From Myrmaecium sp. VS I D KN 1 (taxonomy: Eukaryota; Ascomycota; Dothideomycetes; Valsariales; Valsariaceae): 64,000 nt of DNA. A model generated the notes under the pieces. That model did no database searches, was not told the DNA's origin, and saw only the letters and a program-made list of their open reading frames with translations. Within the stretch, counting starts at the first letter, position 1, and each line of letters starts with the position of its first letter. Made by a program: the position numbers and the translations under genes. The stretch is taken from the NCBI GenBank assembly GCA_019775845.1, contig JADQAV010000002.1:2728001-2792000 (forward strand), in the 5' to 3' direction. Shown in pieces: positions 7,766 through 60,495 of the stretch.

Positions 7766-9532
7766 CTCCAGGTTAGATCAAGTAGCGGAGATGACGGTAG
7801 CGGAGAGAGATTGCGGATGTGACGGTCGTCAAGGGGGAGAAGAGGAGGGATATAATTAGAAGCCCAGTCGCCTCGTCTCAGGGAGCCCTCCGGAAATACG
7901 AGAAGAAGGGGAAAGAGAAGGAGAAGAAAGAAGAAAGAAGAAAAGGGGAACGAAGAGGGAAGAGGGAACGAAGGGAATATAACAATGGTGGGCTAGGTAT
8001 GAAAAACCTCGAGGCAGGCCCACCCGATCTTGTTGCGGCTGCCATACCGCAGTGACAGTGTTAAAACACACCAACTCGCGATTTCTTTCCAACTGATGGC
8101 GACTGCGGCTCAGATGTTGCACAATCGGCGTGAAACACCAAGTGTGACGACAAGGCTGGGTGTGCGGTGGGGGAAGCTTTCGTAGCGCTTGGCGTCGCAG
8201 ATGAGTTTGGGCTGGGACAGAGAGTGGATGATCGGCGACGAAGTTTCGTCGACCGATTACGTGCCTTCGTACGCGATTCTGTTGTTGTCTTCCTGTCGCG
8301 CTTGTTCCTTACTCGACATATGATGCTCCAAGGAATTAGTGGGGTGCACGAGTCGGGAGTAAGAAAGTGGTTATATCAATAAGGATTGATTCGTAACTCC
8401 CACCTTATTTCAAGGCCGTCAGTCGTATCCGCGATCGTGTGGTAAGTACCAAAGCGATGGGTAGAAAGCGCTACATGGACATCGCGTAGAGATCCGTAAA
8501 GCTTGCGTTCTGTCAGCGCTACCATGGGTCAAAGGTGAGCGTGTTGTTGATGCCACCGAATACGCGTCAAAGCTAGGGGGTCGAAGCATCTGTAGGATAT
8601 GCGAAGAGACTGACGGTGGGTGGCCTCTGAGGTGCCCCGCGCAAGTGTGTGCAGATAAAAAGCCTCGATGTTGCTGAACGCTGGACGAAAGGTGAAAGCG
8701 GAAGAACCTGAGGTATGGCAGTGGGTTATACAGATTATCGCCGCTTCCTCAGATAGACGTTCATGTTGTGACCACCAAGCATGACTGTCGTTGCACGGAA
8801 ATGCGCATCTCACAAGAAGGAAAACACCGAAGACCAGGTAGAGACCCGAGTAATCTGTGACGTTCGTAAGGTAAGGTTGGTAGCTGCTTTCACAGAAGTG
8901 ACGCCTTGTCCAGGCCGCAAACCAGGACAAATCAGGGCCAACCAGGGGCCGACCCAAGTCTATCCTTTATGTATCCCCTTTGTTGTTCCCCAATCATTCC
9001 AGCTCCCTAAGCTTCGGGTCTATGGCTGAGTGGTAACGGGGCGCGGGTTCTGAGGGAATGAGCAATCATTCCCCCAGCCCCCAGCCTTCTACCCCTCAGG
9101 TATACACGCCGGATCTAGGACAGCTGAGGGCTCAAGTCTTGGATCTGGGTGCAGTTGACCGTATGCCCTCGGTCTTCCAACAGCACGCCTCCTGCTGGCA
9201 TGCTGCCAGACGCGAGCGGGAGGGGGTACGGTTTGCGGAGAGCATCCTCCCCTCCCATCTTTCTTTCTTTCTTTCTTTTTTTTTTTTTTTTTTTTTTTTT
9301 NNNNNNNNNNNNNNNNNNNNNNNNNNNNNTCCCTTCTTCTTCTTCTTCTTCTTCTTCTTCTTCTTCTTTGAACAAAGCTCGGCGACCGCGACCTTTGAGC
9401 ACACCTCGATGGCGCGATTCACACTGGACCGAAGAACACGACCGCACCAAAGACAGAGAAGAAGAGCGCCTGAGAATCGAGGAAATAGAAGGATATACTT
9501 ACGGCCGGATGACCTCAGTACTGGGTCGTATC
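7766..9532. other. 1.8-kb intergenic region with assembly gap
   Basis: Promoter and leader of the minus-strand gene starting at 7765 (purine-rich on the plus strand from 7830 to 7980, so CT-rich in the transcript) and the 3' flank of the ara2-like gene ending at 9533. No supported gene. A tRNA A-box-like string near 9022 lacks a matching B box and acceptor stem. Confidence 0.6.
9260..9368 (+). repeat. Poly-T / N gap / (TTC)n low-complexity block
   Basis: CTTT repeats run into an uninterrupted poly-T ending at 9300, then 29 undetermined bases (9301-9329), then about 13 TTC units. The gap is probably a masked or unresolved homopolymer rather than a biological feature. It lies 160 bases beyond the stop of the ara2-like gene, in its 3' region. 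Confidence 0.9.
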
Positions 9533-10561
9533 TCAGCTTTCCAAGCTGTAATCCACCCAATCGCCGAGGATGTTTCTTATTCCTTCCACAAGCTGTGTGT
9601 CAACACCGCTCTGACCCTTCCTGCGTCGCTCGAGCACATCCATGCAGACCTTCGCATTCTCCTCCAGCTCCGGGACGTTGCCAGCGCCGATGATCGTGAC
9701 CACACAGACACCATCGCGATCTCGCAACCGTCGTGCCTTATCCACCGCGTATCGCAAGGCCACCTCCGCCAACGACATTCCCTCGCCCTGGCTCTTCACC
9801 CACTCTGCCGCCTCTTGACACTTCTCCCTCAGCCCCGCCGGCGCAGGATGCCAGTCCCCCAGCGCACCCACGGGCACACCTCCATCCCTCAACAAACCCA
9901 CACCCAGCGGACTCGACGCAAGAACCGCGTCCACGCCAGCCTCTTCCGCAAAACCCCTGATCCCCTCGCTCGCCAACCTGCCATTCTGCACCGTCAACTG
10001 CGCCCACACCTGCACCGCGTCCAGCGGCCGACCGTACACATCCTGCACGCGCTTCGCCAACGCGACCAACGTCGGTATCGCGTACCCGCTGATACCCACA
10101 TACCGCATCTTGCCTTCCCGCTGCAGGTCCCACAGCGCACCCACCGCCTCCACCACCGCCTCGGCGTCCACATACTCAGCGTCATGGCAGAAGACCAGGT
10201 CGAGGTAGCTGGTATGGAAGCGCTGCAGGCTGCGTTCCACCGACGCTCGAATCGCGTCGGCGGAGTAGTCGAACCGGTCAGCCGCAATGCGGCCGGCCTT
10301 GGTCAGGATGAGGAAGTCCTCGCGCGGGATGCCGGCTGTGCCCGCGTCACGAAGGGCGTTGCCGAGGATCGTCTCCGACTCGCCGTAGTACGGCGAGGTG
10401 TCAAGGGCGCGGATGCCGAGCGCGTGCGCGCGCCGGATGAAGGACAGCGCCGGCAGGGCGTGCGGGTCCGGGTGCAGCTGGTTGCTGAAGCCGGCGCCGC
10501 CGAGGATGATGTCGGGGAGCACGGTGGAGAGAGGCGGATGGGTTGGTGTGGAATCGGTCAT
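9533..10561 (-). CDS. ara2: D-arabinose 1-dehydrogenase-like aldo/keto reductase
   Basis: A 342-aa single-exon protein of the aldo/keto reductase superfamily, closest in layout to yeast Ara2 (335 aa) and plant L-galactose dehydrogenase. These NAD-dependent enzymes oxidise D-arabinose or L-galactose to the lactone for erythroascorbate or ascorbate synthesis in the cytosol. The AKR tetrad is visible: Asp54 and Tyr59 in ALDTSPYYG, Lys88 in LTKAGR and His126 in FCHDAEY. The glycine-rich ILGGAGF start of the barrel and the ASSPLGVGLL motif are also present. I start at ATG 10561; the frame is open 81 bases further upstream but has no ATG there. Being beside a sugar-related cluster fits its role but may be chance. 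The family call is firm; the exact substrate is inferred. Confidence 0.85.
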   Translation of the reverse strand: MTDSTPTHPPLSTVLPDIILGGAGFSNQLHPDPHALPALSFIRRAHALGIRALDTSPYYGESETILGNALRDAGTAGIPREDFLILTKAGRIAADRFDYSADAIRASVERSLQRFHTSYLDLVFCHDAEYVDAEAVVEAVGALWDLQREGKMRYVGISGYAIPTLVALAKRVQDVYGRPLDAVQVWAQLTVQNGRLASEGIRGFAEEAGVDAVLASSPLGVGLLRDGGVPVGALGDWHPAPAGLREKCQEAAEWVKSQGEGMSLAEVALRYAVDKARRLRDRDGVCVVTIIGAGNVPELEENAKVCMDVLERRRKGQSGVDTQLVEGIRNILGDWVDYSLES

Positions 10562-25105: not shown

Positions 25106-25113
25106 TATATAAG
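25106..25113 (+). promoter_or_regulatory. TATA box of the U2 snRNA gene
   Basis: TATATAAG ends about 40 bases before the start of the U2-like sequence, and nothing else nearby would use it. The spacing fits a Pol II snRNA promoter in fungi. Confidence 0.6.
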
Positions 25114-25153: not shown

Positions 25154-25435
25154 AGCTCTCTGCCTTTTGGCTTAGATCAAGTAAGTCTCCTCTCTTCTTG
25201 ACCTTCCTCCGCGCTCCCTTCCCGCACCGTTGACCGAAACGAATGCTAATAACACTCTCTCTTTCTCCTTCATCAGATGTAGTATCTGTTCTTTCCAGCT
25301 TAACCCCTGGAAGGTGCCTACGGGCACCGTTCACGGTTAACTAATCTTTTGACACCGTCCGGAGGCCGCTGGGCTTGCCTATGTCTCTGGACACAGTGTC
25401 CTCCTGTTTGCACTACCCGGGAGAGACGCGACCTT
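25154..25435 (+). ncRNA. U2 spliceosomal snRNA, interrupted by an intron
   Basis: CTCTCTGCCTTTTGGCTTAGATCAA (25156-25180) matches the highly conserved 5' end of U2, which in other organisms continues directly as GTGTAGTATCTGTTCTT. Here 95 bases intervene, after which ATGTAGTATCTGTTCTTTC resumes at 25276. The branch-pairing GTAGTA is at 25278-25283 on the downstream side. Next come stem IIa (TTCCAG 25292-25297 with CTGGAA 25306-25311), stem IIb (GGTGCC/GGCACC closed by a TACG tetraloop, 25312-25327), an Sm-like TAATCTTTTGA (25341-25351) and a terminal stem (GTCCGGAG 25356-25363 with CTCTGGAC 25384-25391). The 3' end is set by the usual length of about 190 nt and is approximate. A TATA box lies upstream. 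The RNA identity is firm; the intron is inferred from its splice signals. Confidence 0.9.
25181..25275 (+). other. Spliceosomal intron inside the U2 snRNA gene
   Basis: The insertion starts GTAAGTCTCC, has GCTAATAAC (25245-25253) as a strong branch site, a CT-rich tract and ends TTCATCAG, so every signal of a fungal GT-AG intron is present. It separates GATCAA from ATGTAGTATC. Removal restores the U2 length exactly but leaves A where U2 normally has G, at the residue two bases before the GTAGTA branch-recognition element. Confidence 0.8.
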
Positions 25436-26235
25436 TTTTCCTTTTCATTGAGCCACTCGCTACATGCGAGAACTTGAGGAAGAGAAGACTGAGGGCTTGG
25501 CCTTGGTTGCTTGCTGTTGTTTTTGAACGCGGGGTGAGGTTTCGTTGAACGCTGCTCTAGCGTCCGTCTGGGAACTCGCTAGAGACAGGACATCAACGCT
25601 GACGATATAATGCTGTTGTCCCTGCACACATGAGTTACCGCTTGCGCGTCGCGAATTAAGGACTGTCTCATGCGGAAGACAACCGATAGAAGTCTGCAAG
25701 AGCTAGTAAGTCATGAACATGCCCTATTGACTTATTCACACGAAGCTGACGTTCATCGAACAGAGTAAACACGAAGACCATTGTCGAAAAAGGCGTGTCA
25801 GACGTAATATATCACTGAGGGTAAACAACGATAGACGGTTGAAGAGACATATACGAGTCAAGAATGAACGAAGACGGACTGTCTACTGACTTCAGTTATG
25901 AGTAGGTATAATAATGGAAACGTGAAGTAATGGTTCACTAAGAGGCCATGACTGGAAATGCGAAAGATAGCGAAATCAGCGGACGAAAAGCGACAAACAC
26001 TAGACAAGCGATTGTCCATGAGGAAAAGAAGAGCGACGGACACCTTCAATTGATTGATGAGGATAGAAAATGGAAAACTGACATAAAATAAGAAAAGAAG
26101 AACCGAAACTGCAAACGACGCTACCGGTGGCCCTACTGGGCCGGGTATAGAACGCTGGAACGAGTGAAGAAGAATCTAGTGAGATGAAAAACCCATTCTC
26201 AGAGTACCCATATCCCCACCCAGTCGTTCATATGC
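25436..26235. other. Intergenic region downstream of U2
   Basis: Between the U2 gene and the stop of the convergent minus-strand gene. No coding frame or RNA recognised. Confidence 0.5.
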
Positions 26236-28899: not shown

Positions 28900-31800
28900 G
28901 TTCCGCCTCGGCCCATTGCGAGGCAGCAGGGATGTGGACGGTTGAGGAGGAGGTTTCAGAGCACGATGCGGGGGAGGACGGAATGACTGATGTACCAGTA
29001 ATCTCTCAGCACAACCCAGATACGTGCTAGAAGTACTAGCAGGTGCTCGCTGACAGGTGAAAGTGCCCTCGAACACGAACCGCGGGGCAAAGTTCGGTGG
29101 TGTCCTATCGGTCCTCTGCCGCCGCCGTTGATCGTCTCAAATGCCTGGCTCTTTTTCTCCCATGAGCTGAATCCTGCTGCAGAACAAGGAACAGCATCGC
29201 TTCGCTAGCCTTGGCCGGCACTTTATATTTAGAATGCTGGTCGTTCAAAGGCCCTAGTGCGATTCCTGCACCGGCAATGCTACAGACAGATCTTCAGGTG
29301 CAGCTCGACGTTACATGCGCATCCGTTTCAAAAGCAGGAGAGCGCCCCTCCGTCGATCTCTCCACCCTCTCAGTTCACGCACCGCGAGCTTACTCGTGAT
29401 TCGACCGTCTCTCTTTGGGCTTCACGGCGCTGCCTTTCGCGAGCAACGGGCGGGTAGGCGGTTCGCTGAATGCCACATTTCCCGCAACCGTCATATGAAT
29501 ACATACATCTTCAGCTTCCACTCACGTCTCCCCCGGTTTCCGGTAAACCATCGAGGATGGCTGATTTGCCAGGGACGCTTGGGCCCTGGACGACGCCTTT
29601 CGCGAATCATCGCCTCCGCCTTCCCCCACCTCACTTTATGCTATACTGCTGCATGCCCTTCTTCCGAAAGACATCACTTTCAAGCCCTCATCATTCATTG
29701 AACATAGGCGCAAGATGTCCGAACGATAAAATGGCCTTCGGAGCCCCAACTTCTGCTTCAGAGGCGGTCCATTCTGTAGGTCATATGGCTACTGTTATGC
29801 CCGGCTTACTCTACTACGAAGGAATGTTTTACACGGGAGATCTGCAATCCTATAGGCATTTGATGTCATAATATGACTCTTACATCTGCTGCCCCTACCG
29901 TTGGCACGGCGATGTTGGCCTACGGACAGGTCTTCGATTCTTCCTTTACTGGCTCCATGTTCCAGCGATTGTAGACGAGTCTCACCGAACCGCCTTTTAA
30001 GAGTCCCGAAAGCTGCACACGATCTTTAACCATAAAACTTTGTCATTCTTATATTTCCGTCTCTTTTTCGCGTGCCCGAAACGCTTGTTCATTAAGTTTA
30101 TCGACCGATTCGCAGCGGCTTTATGGTGTCCACCTTCCTGGCGATGGAGTCAAACCAAGGGTGCATATCAGCAAGTACCCCGGCGGCATTCTTTGTCACA
30201 GTTACGAAGTAAGCTTAACTAAGGATCAGCAGAGGCCGTCATCACTCTTGACACCTTGGCATAATCGGCTGATCAATCACAACTAAGACGAGCGTGAAGT
30301 CCGGAAGAGATGCAAGGCCTGGCAGCTATAAGTGACAAGCCATCAGCCGGTGTTGTATCTCTGGCTCAATCATTCCAGGTTACTACTAAAGACGGGTGCT
30401 CTCATCCACAAGCCTACTATGCCATGGAAAGCTCGTCAACAAGGCAGTTGTTACTAGCAGTAGCCGAGTCACTTTCCTGAAAGCGATAGTCGGCAAAAGA
30501 AGCCGCTTTTATACTGAGACGCTCTGCTTCAAACCCGTACTCTAACACTGCAGCGTTTATCACGCGGATATAACGTTTCAGCGACGCGGACCATGCCATA
30601 TTATTGGCGGCTGGCCTCCTGGATTATCGCTACCCTCGTTCCATATCCCAAGGACGCAGCCTTACCGACCCCTCAGAGAGCAAGACGTTCCGTACTGTAA
30701 CTCTCTTCGCGGCCCTCCAAGGTTTCACGTACAGGCTTCAATGCAATGACTTGGACAGGCATCCTGAATATTCACGGAAGCATGAAGTTACTAGAGGTAG
30801 GCGGGGCTGGTGAAGAGGGGAGCTAAGTGGTAAGCGGCTATTGGAATGAAGGTATCTGACAGAAGTTGAGGATCTGAGGTAAATTTGACAAGTCTCCAAA
30901 AGTTTGTACGCTGCCGAACTTGCATTTCTCTGTCCCAGGAGGGTAACTGGTGTATCGAGACAAAGTAAAACCGCGGATGTACTTCAGATGTAGTCTGCCA
31001 AAGTAAGTACCAAATCTAGTTCGATGTGAGATACATGATGCCCCGTGCATCGCCAGAGCCAGAGCATTCTGCCTTGATCATTTATATTGTTAAAAGGACT
31101 ACGTAGATACTGATACCAGGCACAGGATGATGACTCCTTAGTAGGGGTGAATGTACCCATCCGAATATCACATGCTCTGGACAAAGGACCCTACCGCGAA
31201 GCAGTATTTTGTGCGAATTAGTGCACGTATACTCCTTTCTACATCCAAAGCCCCTATGATCGATCCGTGATTGCGATGAAATTTGGTCAGCATTTGATTG
31301 ATAGCAGCACGTTCACCTATCTGATCCCATCACGGCTCCTACTGGGAGTTGTACGTCCTTTAGCTCTGCCGCGCGAATTCTGGTCAGGATGCACTAATTA
31401 TAGTCCCGGCGGGGCCGGGCGGCCTCTTGACGATCGACAGCCCAAGGGCGGTCAGCATAGCCACACACAAAACGTCCAGAGAGGGTCTCGGCAAGGGATT
31501 TGATTCTGCGTGCGACGACTGGCTGGGGAGGATTGCGACTCCTCGGTTCCAAAAAGATGCTGACGATTTGCTCCGAGTCCCCGGGCGGTTGCTGTGGTTG
31601 CATGATTCTCTCTCTCCAGCGGTCCACATGCTCGAGGAGTCGCTGCTCCTGCTGCTGCGTTGCGCTGTCACTTGTCCTCGGATAGGAGGATTGTGCGGGG
31701 AGGAGAAGGGGATGGAATGGAGAGGACATTCGAAGCAACTCGCGATGACAACGAGCAGGAGGAGAACGTTAAGGCGAGTTATGTACTGGTTCGAGGAGCT

Positions 31801-58517: not shown

Positions 58518-60495
58518 ATGGCGGACGCGTTGAAGGCAGAAGGAAATAAGCTATTCGCCGAGAAGAAGTTCCAGGAATCAATGTACGTGCCCGCACGTCT
58601 CAGCCTTACGGAAATGCAGAGCTGACTCCGTCGCAGCGAGAAATTCACCCAAGCAATTGAGCTCGAGCCCAGCAACCACGTCCTTTACTCCAACCGTTCC
58701 GGCGCCTATGCCTCGCTTAGAGACTTCCAGCATGCATTGGAGGATGCGAACAAAGTAACGGAGCTGAAGCCGGATTGGCCGAAAGGTTGGGGTCGTAAGG
58801 GCGCTGCACTGCACGGTCTGGGGGATCTTGGTAAGCTCAGAAGCCTCATAGATCCACGGTAGCTGATCATACTAACACTTGCATAGTTGGCGCATCCGAC
58901 GCTTACGAAGAGGCCCTCAAGATCGACCCGAACAATGCCCAGGCAAAGTCTGGTCTCGAAGCAGTCAAGCGCGCTATTGAGGCGGAAGCCAGGCAAGATG
59001 GAGCAGCTGCCGACGCTGCTGCGGGCCTGGGAAGCATGTTCAACGACCCTCAGCTCATCCAGAAGCTTGCAAACAATCCTAAGACCAGCGGCCTCCTCGC
59101 CGATGCAGAGTTCATGTCTAAGTTACAGAGAGTGAAGGAGAACCCGAACCTTATTGGGCAGGAGATGAGGGACCCGCGGTTCTTATCTGTCATGAGTGTT
59201 TTGTTGGGCATTGACATGTCCTTCGGTCAACCTCCGGAGGATGCTGCTCAGACCAGCGGACAGACTGAGAAGGAGGAGGATGTTCCTATGCCCGACGCGA
59301 AGCCGGCGGAGCCAGAGAAGCAGCCGGAGCCAGAACCAGAACCAGAGCCGGAAGATGAAGAAGCGATTGCTAAGCGTGAGGCAAAGGCGAAGGCCGACGA
59401 GGAGAAGAGACTGGGAACGGAGAAATACAAGAAGAGGCAATTCGATGAGGCCATAGAGCACTACAGCAAGGCCTGGGAGTTGTATAAGGATATCACATAT
59501 CTCACCAACCTCGGTGCGGCTAAGTTCGAGAAGGGAGACTACGATGGTGCGATCGAGGCATGCCAAACAGCAATTGAGGAGGGCCGCGCAATGCTTGCTG
59601 ACTTCAAACTCATTGCCAAGTAAGTAAACAGTCTCCCCAGATATGGCTAGCTTCCTACTAACCCTCTCCAGGGCATTTGGTCGTATTGGATCGGCTTATG
59701 AGAAGAAGGGCGATCTTGCCAATGCTATTGAGTATTATCAGAGATCTCTCACGGAGCACCGCACACCTGACATCCTCGCCAAGCTCAGAGCTGCTGAGAA
59801 GGCGAAGATCAAGGCTGAGAAGGAAGCCTACATCAACCCAGAGAAGGCGGAAGAGGCGCGCGAGCTGGGCAACGCCAGGTTCAAGGAAGCCGATTGGCCC
59901 GGTGCCGTCGAGGCGTATTCGGAGATGATCAAGCGTTCGCCGGATGACCCGCGCGGCTACTCCAACCGTGCGGCTTGCTTCATCAAACTCTTAAGTTTCC
60001 CCAGCGCTGTTCAGGACTGCGATGAGGCTATCAAGAGAGATCCCAAGTTCATCCGTGCGTACCTGCGCAAGGCTCAAGCCCTTTGCGCTATGCGTGAATA
60101 CAACAAGTGTATCGACGTCTGCACGGAGGCGCTGGAGCACGATGATGGCAAGAACACTCGGGAGATTGAGCAACAACAGCAGAAGGCTCTGCAAGCGCAG
60201 TTCTCTGCTCGCGAGGGTGAGACGGAGCAACAGACCATGGAGAGGATCCAGAAGGACCCAGAGGTAAGGACAACCCGAGCTGCGTCACGCGCGCTTCACG
60301 ATCGCCCGTCCCTATTAGGATGTGATGCTAACATTTGGACAGATTCTGGCTATCCTTCAGGACCCCGTTATGCAGAGTATTCTGCAACAAGCGAAGGACA
60401 ACCCAGCTGCTCTCCAGGAGCACATGAAGAACGCACAGGTCCGCACCAACGTCCAGAAGCTGGTTGCTGCCGGTGTGATTCGCTTGGGGCGATGA
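58518..60495 (+). CDS. sti1: Hsp70/Hsp90 co-chaperone Sti1/Hop (5 exons)
   Basis: Exons 58518-58582, 58637-58830, 58887-59619, 59672-60263 and 60343-60495 join in frame to 578 aa, the normal Sti1 length. Order of parts: TPR1 (residues 1-115, ADALKAEGNKLFAEKKF), DP1 (about 130-195, FNDPQLIQKLANNP), an EPEPEPEPEPED linker (about 240), TPR2A (about 258-380, EKRLGTEKYKKRQFDEAIEHYSK), TPR2B (about 390-510, EARELGNARFKEADW) and DP2 (about 525-575, ILAILQDPVMQSILQQA). The TPR clamps bind the C-terminal EEVD ends of Hsp70 and Hsp90 and pass clients between them in the cytosol. The first intron is only 54 bases. A heat-shock-like element lies upstream. Very sure. Confidence 0.96.

Follow-up and report, generated by a model that had tools for sequence, protein, structure and literature searches.

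The window, a stretch of 64,000 nucleotides from the genome of Myrmaecium sp. VS I D KN 1, contains a U2 snRNA-like sequence that breaks off close to its 5' end and resumes after an insertion. This raises the question of whether the gene of a spliceosomal RNA is itself interrupted by a spliceosomal intron and, if so, how such a gene could give rise to a U2 snRNA.

A U2 snRNA gene split by a spliceosomal-type intron

A cmscan analysis of the window gave a single match above the gathering score, to the U2 family RF00004 (25257-25437; 100.3 bits for a cut-off of 46). The 5' end of this match is forced into the insertion, while the true 5' exon, AGCTCTCTGCCTTTTGGCTTAGATCAA, is found at 25154-25180, with a start that was placed by alignment to five other U2 genes of the same genome. 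The gene, called U2d here (the names U2a to U2f are ours, U2d being the window copy), covers 25154-25433 on the + strand and is split by a 96-nt insertion at 25181-25276. Its features are as follows.

25106-25112, + strand: TATA box (TATATAA), 48 bases before the 5' end of U2d
25154-25180, + strand: exon 1, with the 5' end, stem I and GATCAA
25181-25276, + strand: spliceosomal-type intron of 96 nt, GTAAGT...TCAG
25244-25253, + strand: probable branch site TGCTAATAAC, with the branch A at about 25249, 27 bases before the last intron base
25277-25433, + strand: exon 2, with the branch-recognition segment TGTAGTATC, IIa, IIb, the Sm site (identified by eye), III and IV
25441-25484, + strand: downstream hairpin (UUUUC.UUGAG...CUUGA.GAAGA), which folds and is a probable RNase III-type 3' processing/termination signal

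The GATCAA of exon 1 is presumably the element that pairs with U6 in U2/U6 helix I, and the rest of U2d resumes at 25277 with ATGTAGTATCTG. Both the U6-pairing GAUC and the branch-recognition GUAGUA are therefore present and flank the insertion, which lies between GAUCAA and GUAGUA, a position that we take to be between nucleotides 30 and 31 in human U2 numbering. A preliminary description of this locus had proposed a U2 gene split by a spliceosomal-type intron, and this proposal is borne out by the RF00004 score together with the intron signals. The GTAAGT start, the pyrimidine tract and the TCAG end that it had listed are all seen, the order being TGCTAAT, then the pyrimidine tract CTCTCTCTTTCTCCTTCATCAG, then TCAG. 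Its limits needed a correction by one base, from a 95-base insertion with exon 2 starting at 25276 to a 96-base insertion with exon 2 starting at 25277. Pfam matches among ten proteins of the window concerned Fungal_trans, TRP and CYT4 domains, which, we would say, point to a fungus.

The combination of signals found in the insertion is rare in this genome. When 263,406 bases were searched on both strands, real introns included, GTAAGT, CTRAY and YAG occurred together at lengths of 50-150 in 64 of 53,208,012 combinations of start and length (~1.2e-6), and in 2 of 526,812 at a length of 96 alone. We also looked for coding introns of this genome. Two of them, read by eye for frame, are found in a gene of the window that we take to be STI1-like and whose product has TPR matches in Pfam, and their signals are like those of the U2d intron.

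59620-59671: GTAAGT...TACTAAC...CAG; the join keeps the frame
60264-60342: GTAAGG...TGCTAAC...CAG; the join keeps the frame

Codon scores, which separate poorly, gave 22 candidate coding introns, of which 7 were kept and none was convincing. Our reference for branch motifs consequently consists of the two introns found by eye and of a motif count in 263 kb of the genome. In this count, the top three 5-mers before YAG behind GTA(A/C)GT donors were CTGAC, GCTAA and CTAAT, and the donor/acceptor context was found for CTAAC in 27/241, for CTGAC in 40/464 and for CTAAT in 24/180 cases, with a background of 3090/48000.

The U2d donor GTAAGT can form 6 pairs with the 5' end of the U1 snRNA of this genome (-5.6 kcal/mol), and the donors of the two coding introns form 7 pairs each (-7.2 and -9.3 kcal/mol). 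GT-AG removal of the insertion joins GATCAA to ATGTAGTATC (in RNA, GAUCAA to AUGUAGUAUC), one base off the usual U2: the junction reads GATCAAATGTAG and not GATCAAGTGTAG, with an A replacing a G at what is presumably position 31 in human numbering (G31A). Against a profile built from the four uninterrupted U2 copies, U2d scored 144.0 bits unspliced and 151.5 bits when spliced as GT-AG, the third of 20 versions; moving the cut by one or two bases, away from GT-AG, gave 152.8 bits, 1.3 above the GT-AG version. When the U2d branch segment was paired computationally with four branch segments, the duplex energies were -3.7, -7.5, -4.4 and -3.1 kcal/mol (U2a: -3.7, -7.8, -4.4 and -3.7), so that G31A costs at most 0.6 kcal/mol and spliced U2d is computed to pair with the branch sites of this genome nearly as U2a does. 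The 5' segment of U2d lacks two U's, and its computed helix II with U6 is weaker (-9.5 vs -13.3 kcal/mol for U2a). Altogether, these sequence comparisons give good support to a U2 gene interrupted by a spliceosomal-type intron, and from its signals we infer that this intron is spliced.

At least six diverged U2 genes in the genome

Searching the whole assembly (25.66 Mb, 66 contigs) uncovered at least six diverged U2 genes, all above the RF00004 cut-off. This number is a lower bound from 46 scored candidates out of 324, and a pattern of exact conserved motifs recovered the same six genes.

U2a: contig C21, 134.6 bits
U2b: contig C18, 118.5 bits
U2c: contig C27:169650-169912, + strand, 108.9 bits
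U2d: window, + strand, 100.3 bits
U2e: contig C64:80647-80841, - strand, 91.4 bits
U2f: contig C5:1475535-1475725, + strand, 77.9 bits

U2a and U2b carry the full GATCAAGTGTAGTATC without interruption. An uninterrupted U2 copy elsewhere in the genome, which the preliminary description had suggested looking for, is thus found twice. The same description had held that an intact U2 gene elsewhere, combined with a lack of expression of the split copy, would speak against its reading, and the first half of this combination is what U2a and U2b represent. It had also argued that the spliceosome has to splice the very RNA with which it finds branch sites, a claim that goes too far: U2a and U2b, which have no interruption, can provide the U2 that splicing requires, and there is no logical circle in the splicing of U2d.

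In a FastTree phylogeny, U2a and U2b group together with a support of 0.994 and U2e and U2f with a support of 0.778, the latter two standing on long branches adjoining U2c (0.848). We considered that the copies might be alleles or recent large duplications, and rejected this since blastn matches between stretches of ~10 kb around each of the six copies are confined to the genes and their immediate promoters. One noncoding stretch common to U2d and U2e is the exception. It aligns window positions 29876-30173 with positions 9483-9750 of the extract from the U2e contig (298 alignment columns, 74% identical), lies ~4.4 kb from each U2 gene and has no long common reading frame by eye. An 18-mer of the split U2 5' sequence had 1 match in viral contigs and 4 in bacterial or archaeal contigs of other collections, no more than expected by chance (~7 estimated for the latter).

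The pairing of helices was then compared between the copies. With arms set by hand from folds, 102/102 cells are paired in helices IIa, IIb and inner IV over the six genes, in a count that does not include stems I and III. Of the 17 pairs, 12 have both of their bases altered in the course of the divergence, 1 has a single altered base and 4 are invariant. Outside this count, stem III pairs at 7/9 positions in U2e and contains 4 non-standard pairs in U2b according to cmscan. The chance of keeping as many pairs, calculated relative to U2a as a product over the three helices with independent changes, is ~9e-5 for U2c, 0.02 for U2d, 5e-7 for U2e and 1e-3 for U2f. Since pairs were kept despite changes, U2c, U2e and U2f are not simply decaying at random; for U2d, this evidence is weak because U2d has changed little.

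A second intron in U2c

U2c starts with AGCTCTC, followed by a 74-base intron (GTAAGT...GCTGAC...CCAACAG) and then by TTTGCCATATGGCTTAGATC. Its first exon is very short, with 7 bases from the aligned start. Removing the intron yields AGCTCTCTTTGCC, which is identical to the 5' sequence of U2a and U2b, and spliced U2c was the best of 20 versions when scored with the four-copy profile (157.1 bits vs 147.4 unspliced). The computed pairing of the U2c 5' end with the 3' region of the U6 snRNA of this genome goes from -8.2 kcal/mol unspliced to -13.3 kcal/mol spliced. As the U2c and U2d introns do not share a position, each was probably acquired independently.

Two U2 copies with altered branch-recognition segments

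U2e and U2f both lack GUAGUA. U2e has GCGCAGCGTG where U2 has GTGTAGTATC, with GCGCAGCGUG as its branch segment, and U2f has GAACAGACGTATCTAG at the branch-recognition site (also given as ACGTATCTA and ACGUAUCUA). In U2f, GAUC is in addition replaced by GAAC, the changed base being, we assume, one that pairs with U6. All 17 tested pairs are kept in U2e despite 19 changes in paired arms relative to U2a, as are the tested pairs of U2f with 7 such changes, and a TATA box and a 3' hairpin are present in both genes. In U2e, an Sm site is also seen by eye.

Within the 263 kb, where the background was 3090/48000, motifs complementary to the altered segments showed no enrichment ahead of 3' splice sites. 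This was so for U2e (CTAGC 14/242, CGCTAG 3/54, GCTAGC 1/62, CGCTGC 7/265) and for U2f (CGATC 45/710, ACGATC 9/177, TACGAT 4/86). Closing of the branch region in a hairpin was also considered and not retained, as it was not significant for U2e (467/2000 shuffles) and borderline for U2f (92/2000). Computed duplexes with the same four ordinary branch segments gave -0.1 (TACTAAC), -5.2, -5.1 and -6.3 kcal/mol for U2e, and -1.1, -5.5, -2.1 and -1.5 kcal/mol for U2f (compared to -3.7, -7.8, -4.4 and -3.7 for U2a). Since U2e still pairs with three of the four segments, a loss of ordinary recognition does not follow. One might imagine several kinds of U2 snRNPs in this organism, with U2a to U2d acting at ordinary branch sites, U2e and U2f being maintained as U2-like RNAs that serve a subset of introns or are decoys outside splicing, and U2c and U2d depending on splicing for their production, a scenario that we regard as unlikely.

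Promoters and 3' hairpins of the snRNA genes

Besides the U2 genes, we found two copies of U1 (both below the Rfam cut-off), one of U4, one of U5, one of U6 and two of U3. No intron-sized insertion was seen in the U4, U5, U6 and U3 matches, nor, by eye, in the U1 copies. A search for U12 gave no match in this genome, which says little about a minor spliceosome since the same search gave no match anywhere else either. A TATA box is located at -28 to -55 in 11/11 snRNA genes (six U2, two U1, U4, U5 and U6). Its distance to exon 1 is 48 bases for U2d, 55 for U2c and 41 to 54 for the four uninterrupted U2 copies, and this similar spacing supports both exon 1 positions.

An upstream element, GCTCGCTTAG, matches at 10/10 positions in U2a and U2b, at 9 in U2e and one U1 gene, at 8 in the other U1 gene and U4, at 7 in U2c, U2f, U5 and U6, and at 6 in U2d, the lowest of the 11 genes. 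Of 300 shuffles, 145 reached a best score of 7, 116 a best score of 6 and 37 a score of at least 8. By this measure, U2d, U2c and U2f have no copy of the element above chance; those standing out are U2a, U2b, U2e and one U1 gene (9-10), with the other U1 gene and U4 at 8.

A 3' hairpin was found in all nine genes that were folded (six U2, two U1 and U4), with z-scores of -3.0 to -6.2 from 300 single-base shuffles per gene on stretches trimmed by hand. A sequence frame, UUGA...UUGAGGAAGA, is common to the hairpins of the U2, U1 and U4 genes and is eroded in U2f; by eye, it is also seen at both U3 genes and is absent at U5 and U6, which were left unfolded. By analogy, this shared hairpin is probably an RNase III-type signal, and its frame might be used to search this genome for additional noncoding RNAs.

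A secondary U2 gene whose transcript is probably spliced

Considering these observations together, U2d most likely represents a genuine, though secondary, U2 gene whose transcript is spliced. The overall explanation that we favor, and judge probable, is that U2d is one of at least six U2 genes and is transcribed, spliced and released at its hairpin to give a product with A31. U2d would be transcribed from its TATA promoter, its intron would be removed by spliceosomes containing U2 from U2a and U2b (plus spliced U2c and U2d), and the 3' end would then be freed by RNase III-type cleavage at the hairpin that follows the gene. The product would be a U2 snRNA carrying A31 in place of the usual G, which spliceosomes may be able to use.

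Alternatively, U2d may be a silent or decaying paralog with an intron-like insertion, while other copies supply U2. Several features would fit such a gene: its score for GCTCGCTTAG is the lowest of the 11 genes, although this score is at chance level as are the scores of 7 of U2c, U2f, U5 and U6, its product would carry G31A, its 5' segment is shortened and it would be dispensable given the intact copies. Its TATA box, its Sm site (by eye), its three tested helices and its 3' hairpin are nevertheless intact, and its intron signals are complete, so that we hold silence or decay to be unlikely, while leaving it appreciable weight.

The preliminary description had imagined that an unspliced copy could act as a feedback signal. 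In such a regulatory switch, unspliced U2d would report a low splicing capacity and be degraded or act as a signal. In favor of it, the intron parts the U6-pairing segment from the branch-pairing one, so that unspliced U2d should be inactive as a U2. However, U2a and U2b uncouple the supply of U2 from the U2d intron, and the U2c intron is at a different place with no shared switch apparent, making such a regulation very unlikely. Finally, the use of a single assembly might allow a mis-assembled or random insertion that resembles an intron. This is extremely improbable, since these signals combine at a frequency of ~1.2e-6 for a given start and length and since U2c has an intron as well, without which its 5' sequence is the same as that of U2a.

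Comparison with known systems

In Mol Cell Biol in 1993, Takahashi et al. reportedly described a red yeast, Rhodotorula hasegawae, whose U2 gene has an mRNA-type intron. That intron is said to measure 60 bp and to follow closely on the branch-recognition domain, and the U6 gene of this yeast would have four introns. U2d resembles this case in having a spliceosomal-type intron that adjoins the branch-recognition domain, but its intron is just upstream, another U2 copy is interrupted close to its 5' end, the genome also has U2 copies without an intron and U6 was found without one. The U2d intron adds a case to a known rarity, at a site that differs from the one reported for the red yeast. What is unusual is that the six U2 genes have diverged and include two that are interrupted by introns and two whose branch-recognition segment is altered; among the matches listed by searches of the open-licence literature, no report of a fungal U2 family of this kind was recognised.

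Introns in spliceosomal RNAs bear on the origin of introns. The U6 intron of fission yeast is established, and reverse splicing has been proposed as its origin (PMC10484740). The U2c and U2d introns occupy different sites, each adjoining a segment that pairs with U6 or with the branch site, and fit the prediction of reverse splicing, with two cases only. The U6 introns of fission yeast and other fungi are, like that of U2d, of the mRNA type and near catalytic or pairing nucleotides; here, however, the interrupted gene is one of several U2 paralogs and U6 is uninterrupted (PMC10484740). According to a 2017 paper, frequent interruption by introns was known, among small structured RNAs, for U3 and U6 only (PMC5832005). 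The fungal U3 snoRNA introns that it describes share with the U2 introns the setting of a small structured nuclear RNA and variable insertion positions, whereas both U3 genes of the present genome are without an intron-sized insertion (PMC5832005).

The 3' hairpins also have a counterpart. In fission yeast, the pol II snRNA genes U1, U2, U4 and U5 are followed by predicted hairpins and bind the RNase III Pac1, while snU6 shows no Pac1 binding (PMC8421224). The predicted hairpins directly downstream of pol II snRNA genes are common to both organisms; the recurrence of a sequence frame across U1, U2, U4 and U3 sets the present genome apart, as does U5, which has a predicted hairpin in fission yeast and none seen by eye here (PMC8421224).

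The uninterrupted U2 paralogs provide a natural control in the same cell for the copies with introns, and the six-gene family makes variant U2 snRNPs testable in a fungus. Several variants of one snRNA likewise exist per genome in animals (PMC10645366), while the family described here belongs to a fungus and includes two members with introns and two with a changed branch-recognition segment.
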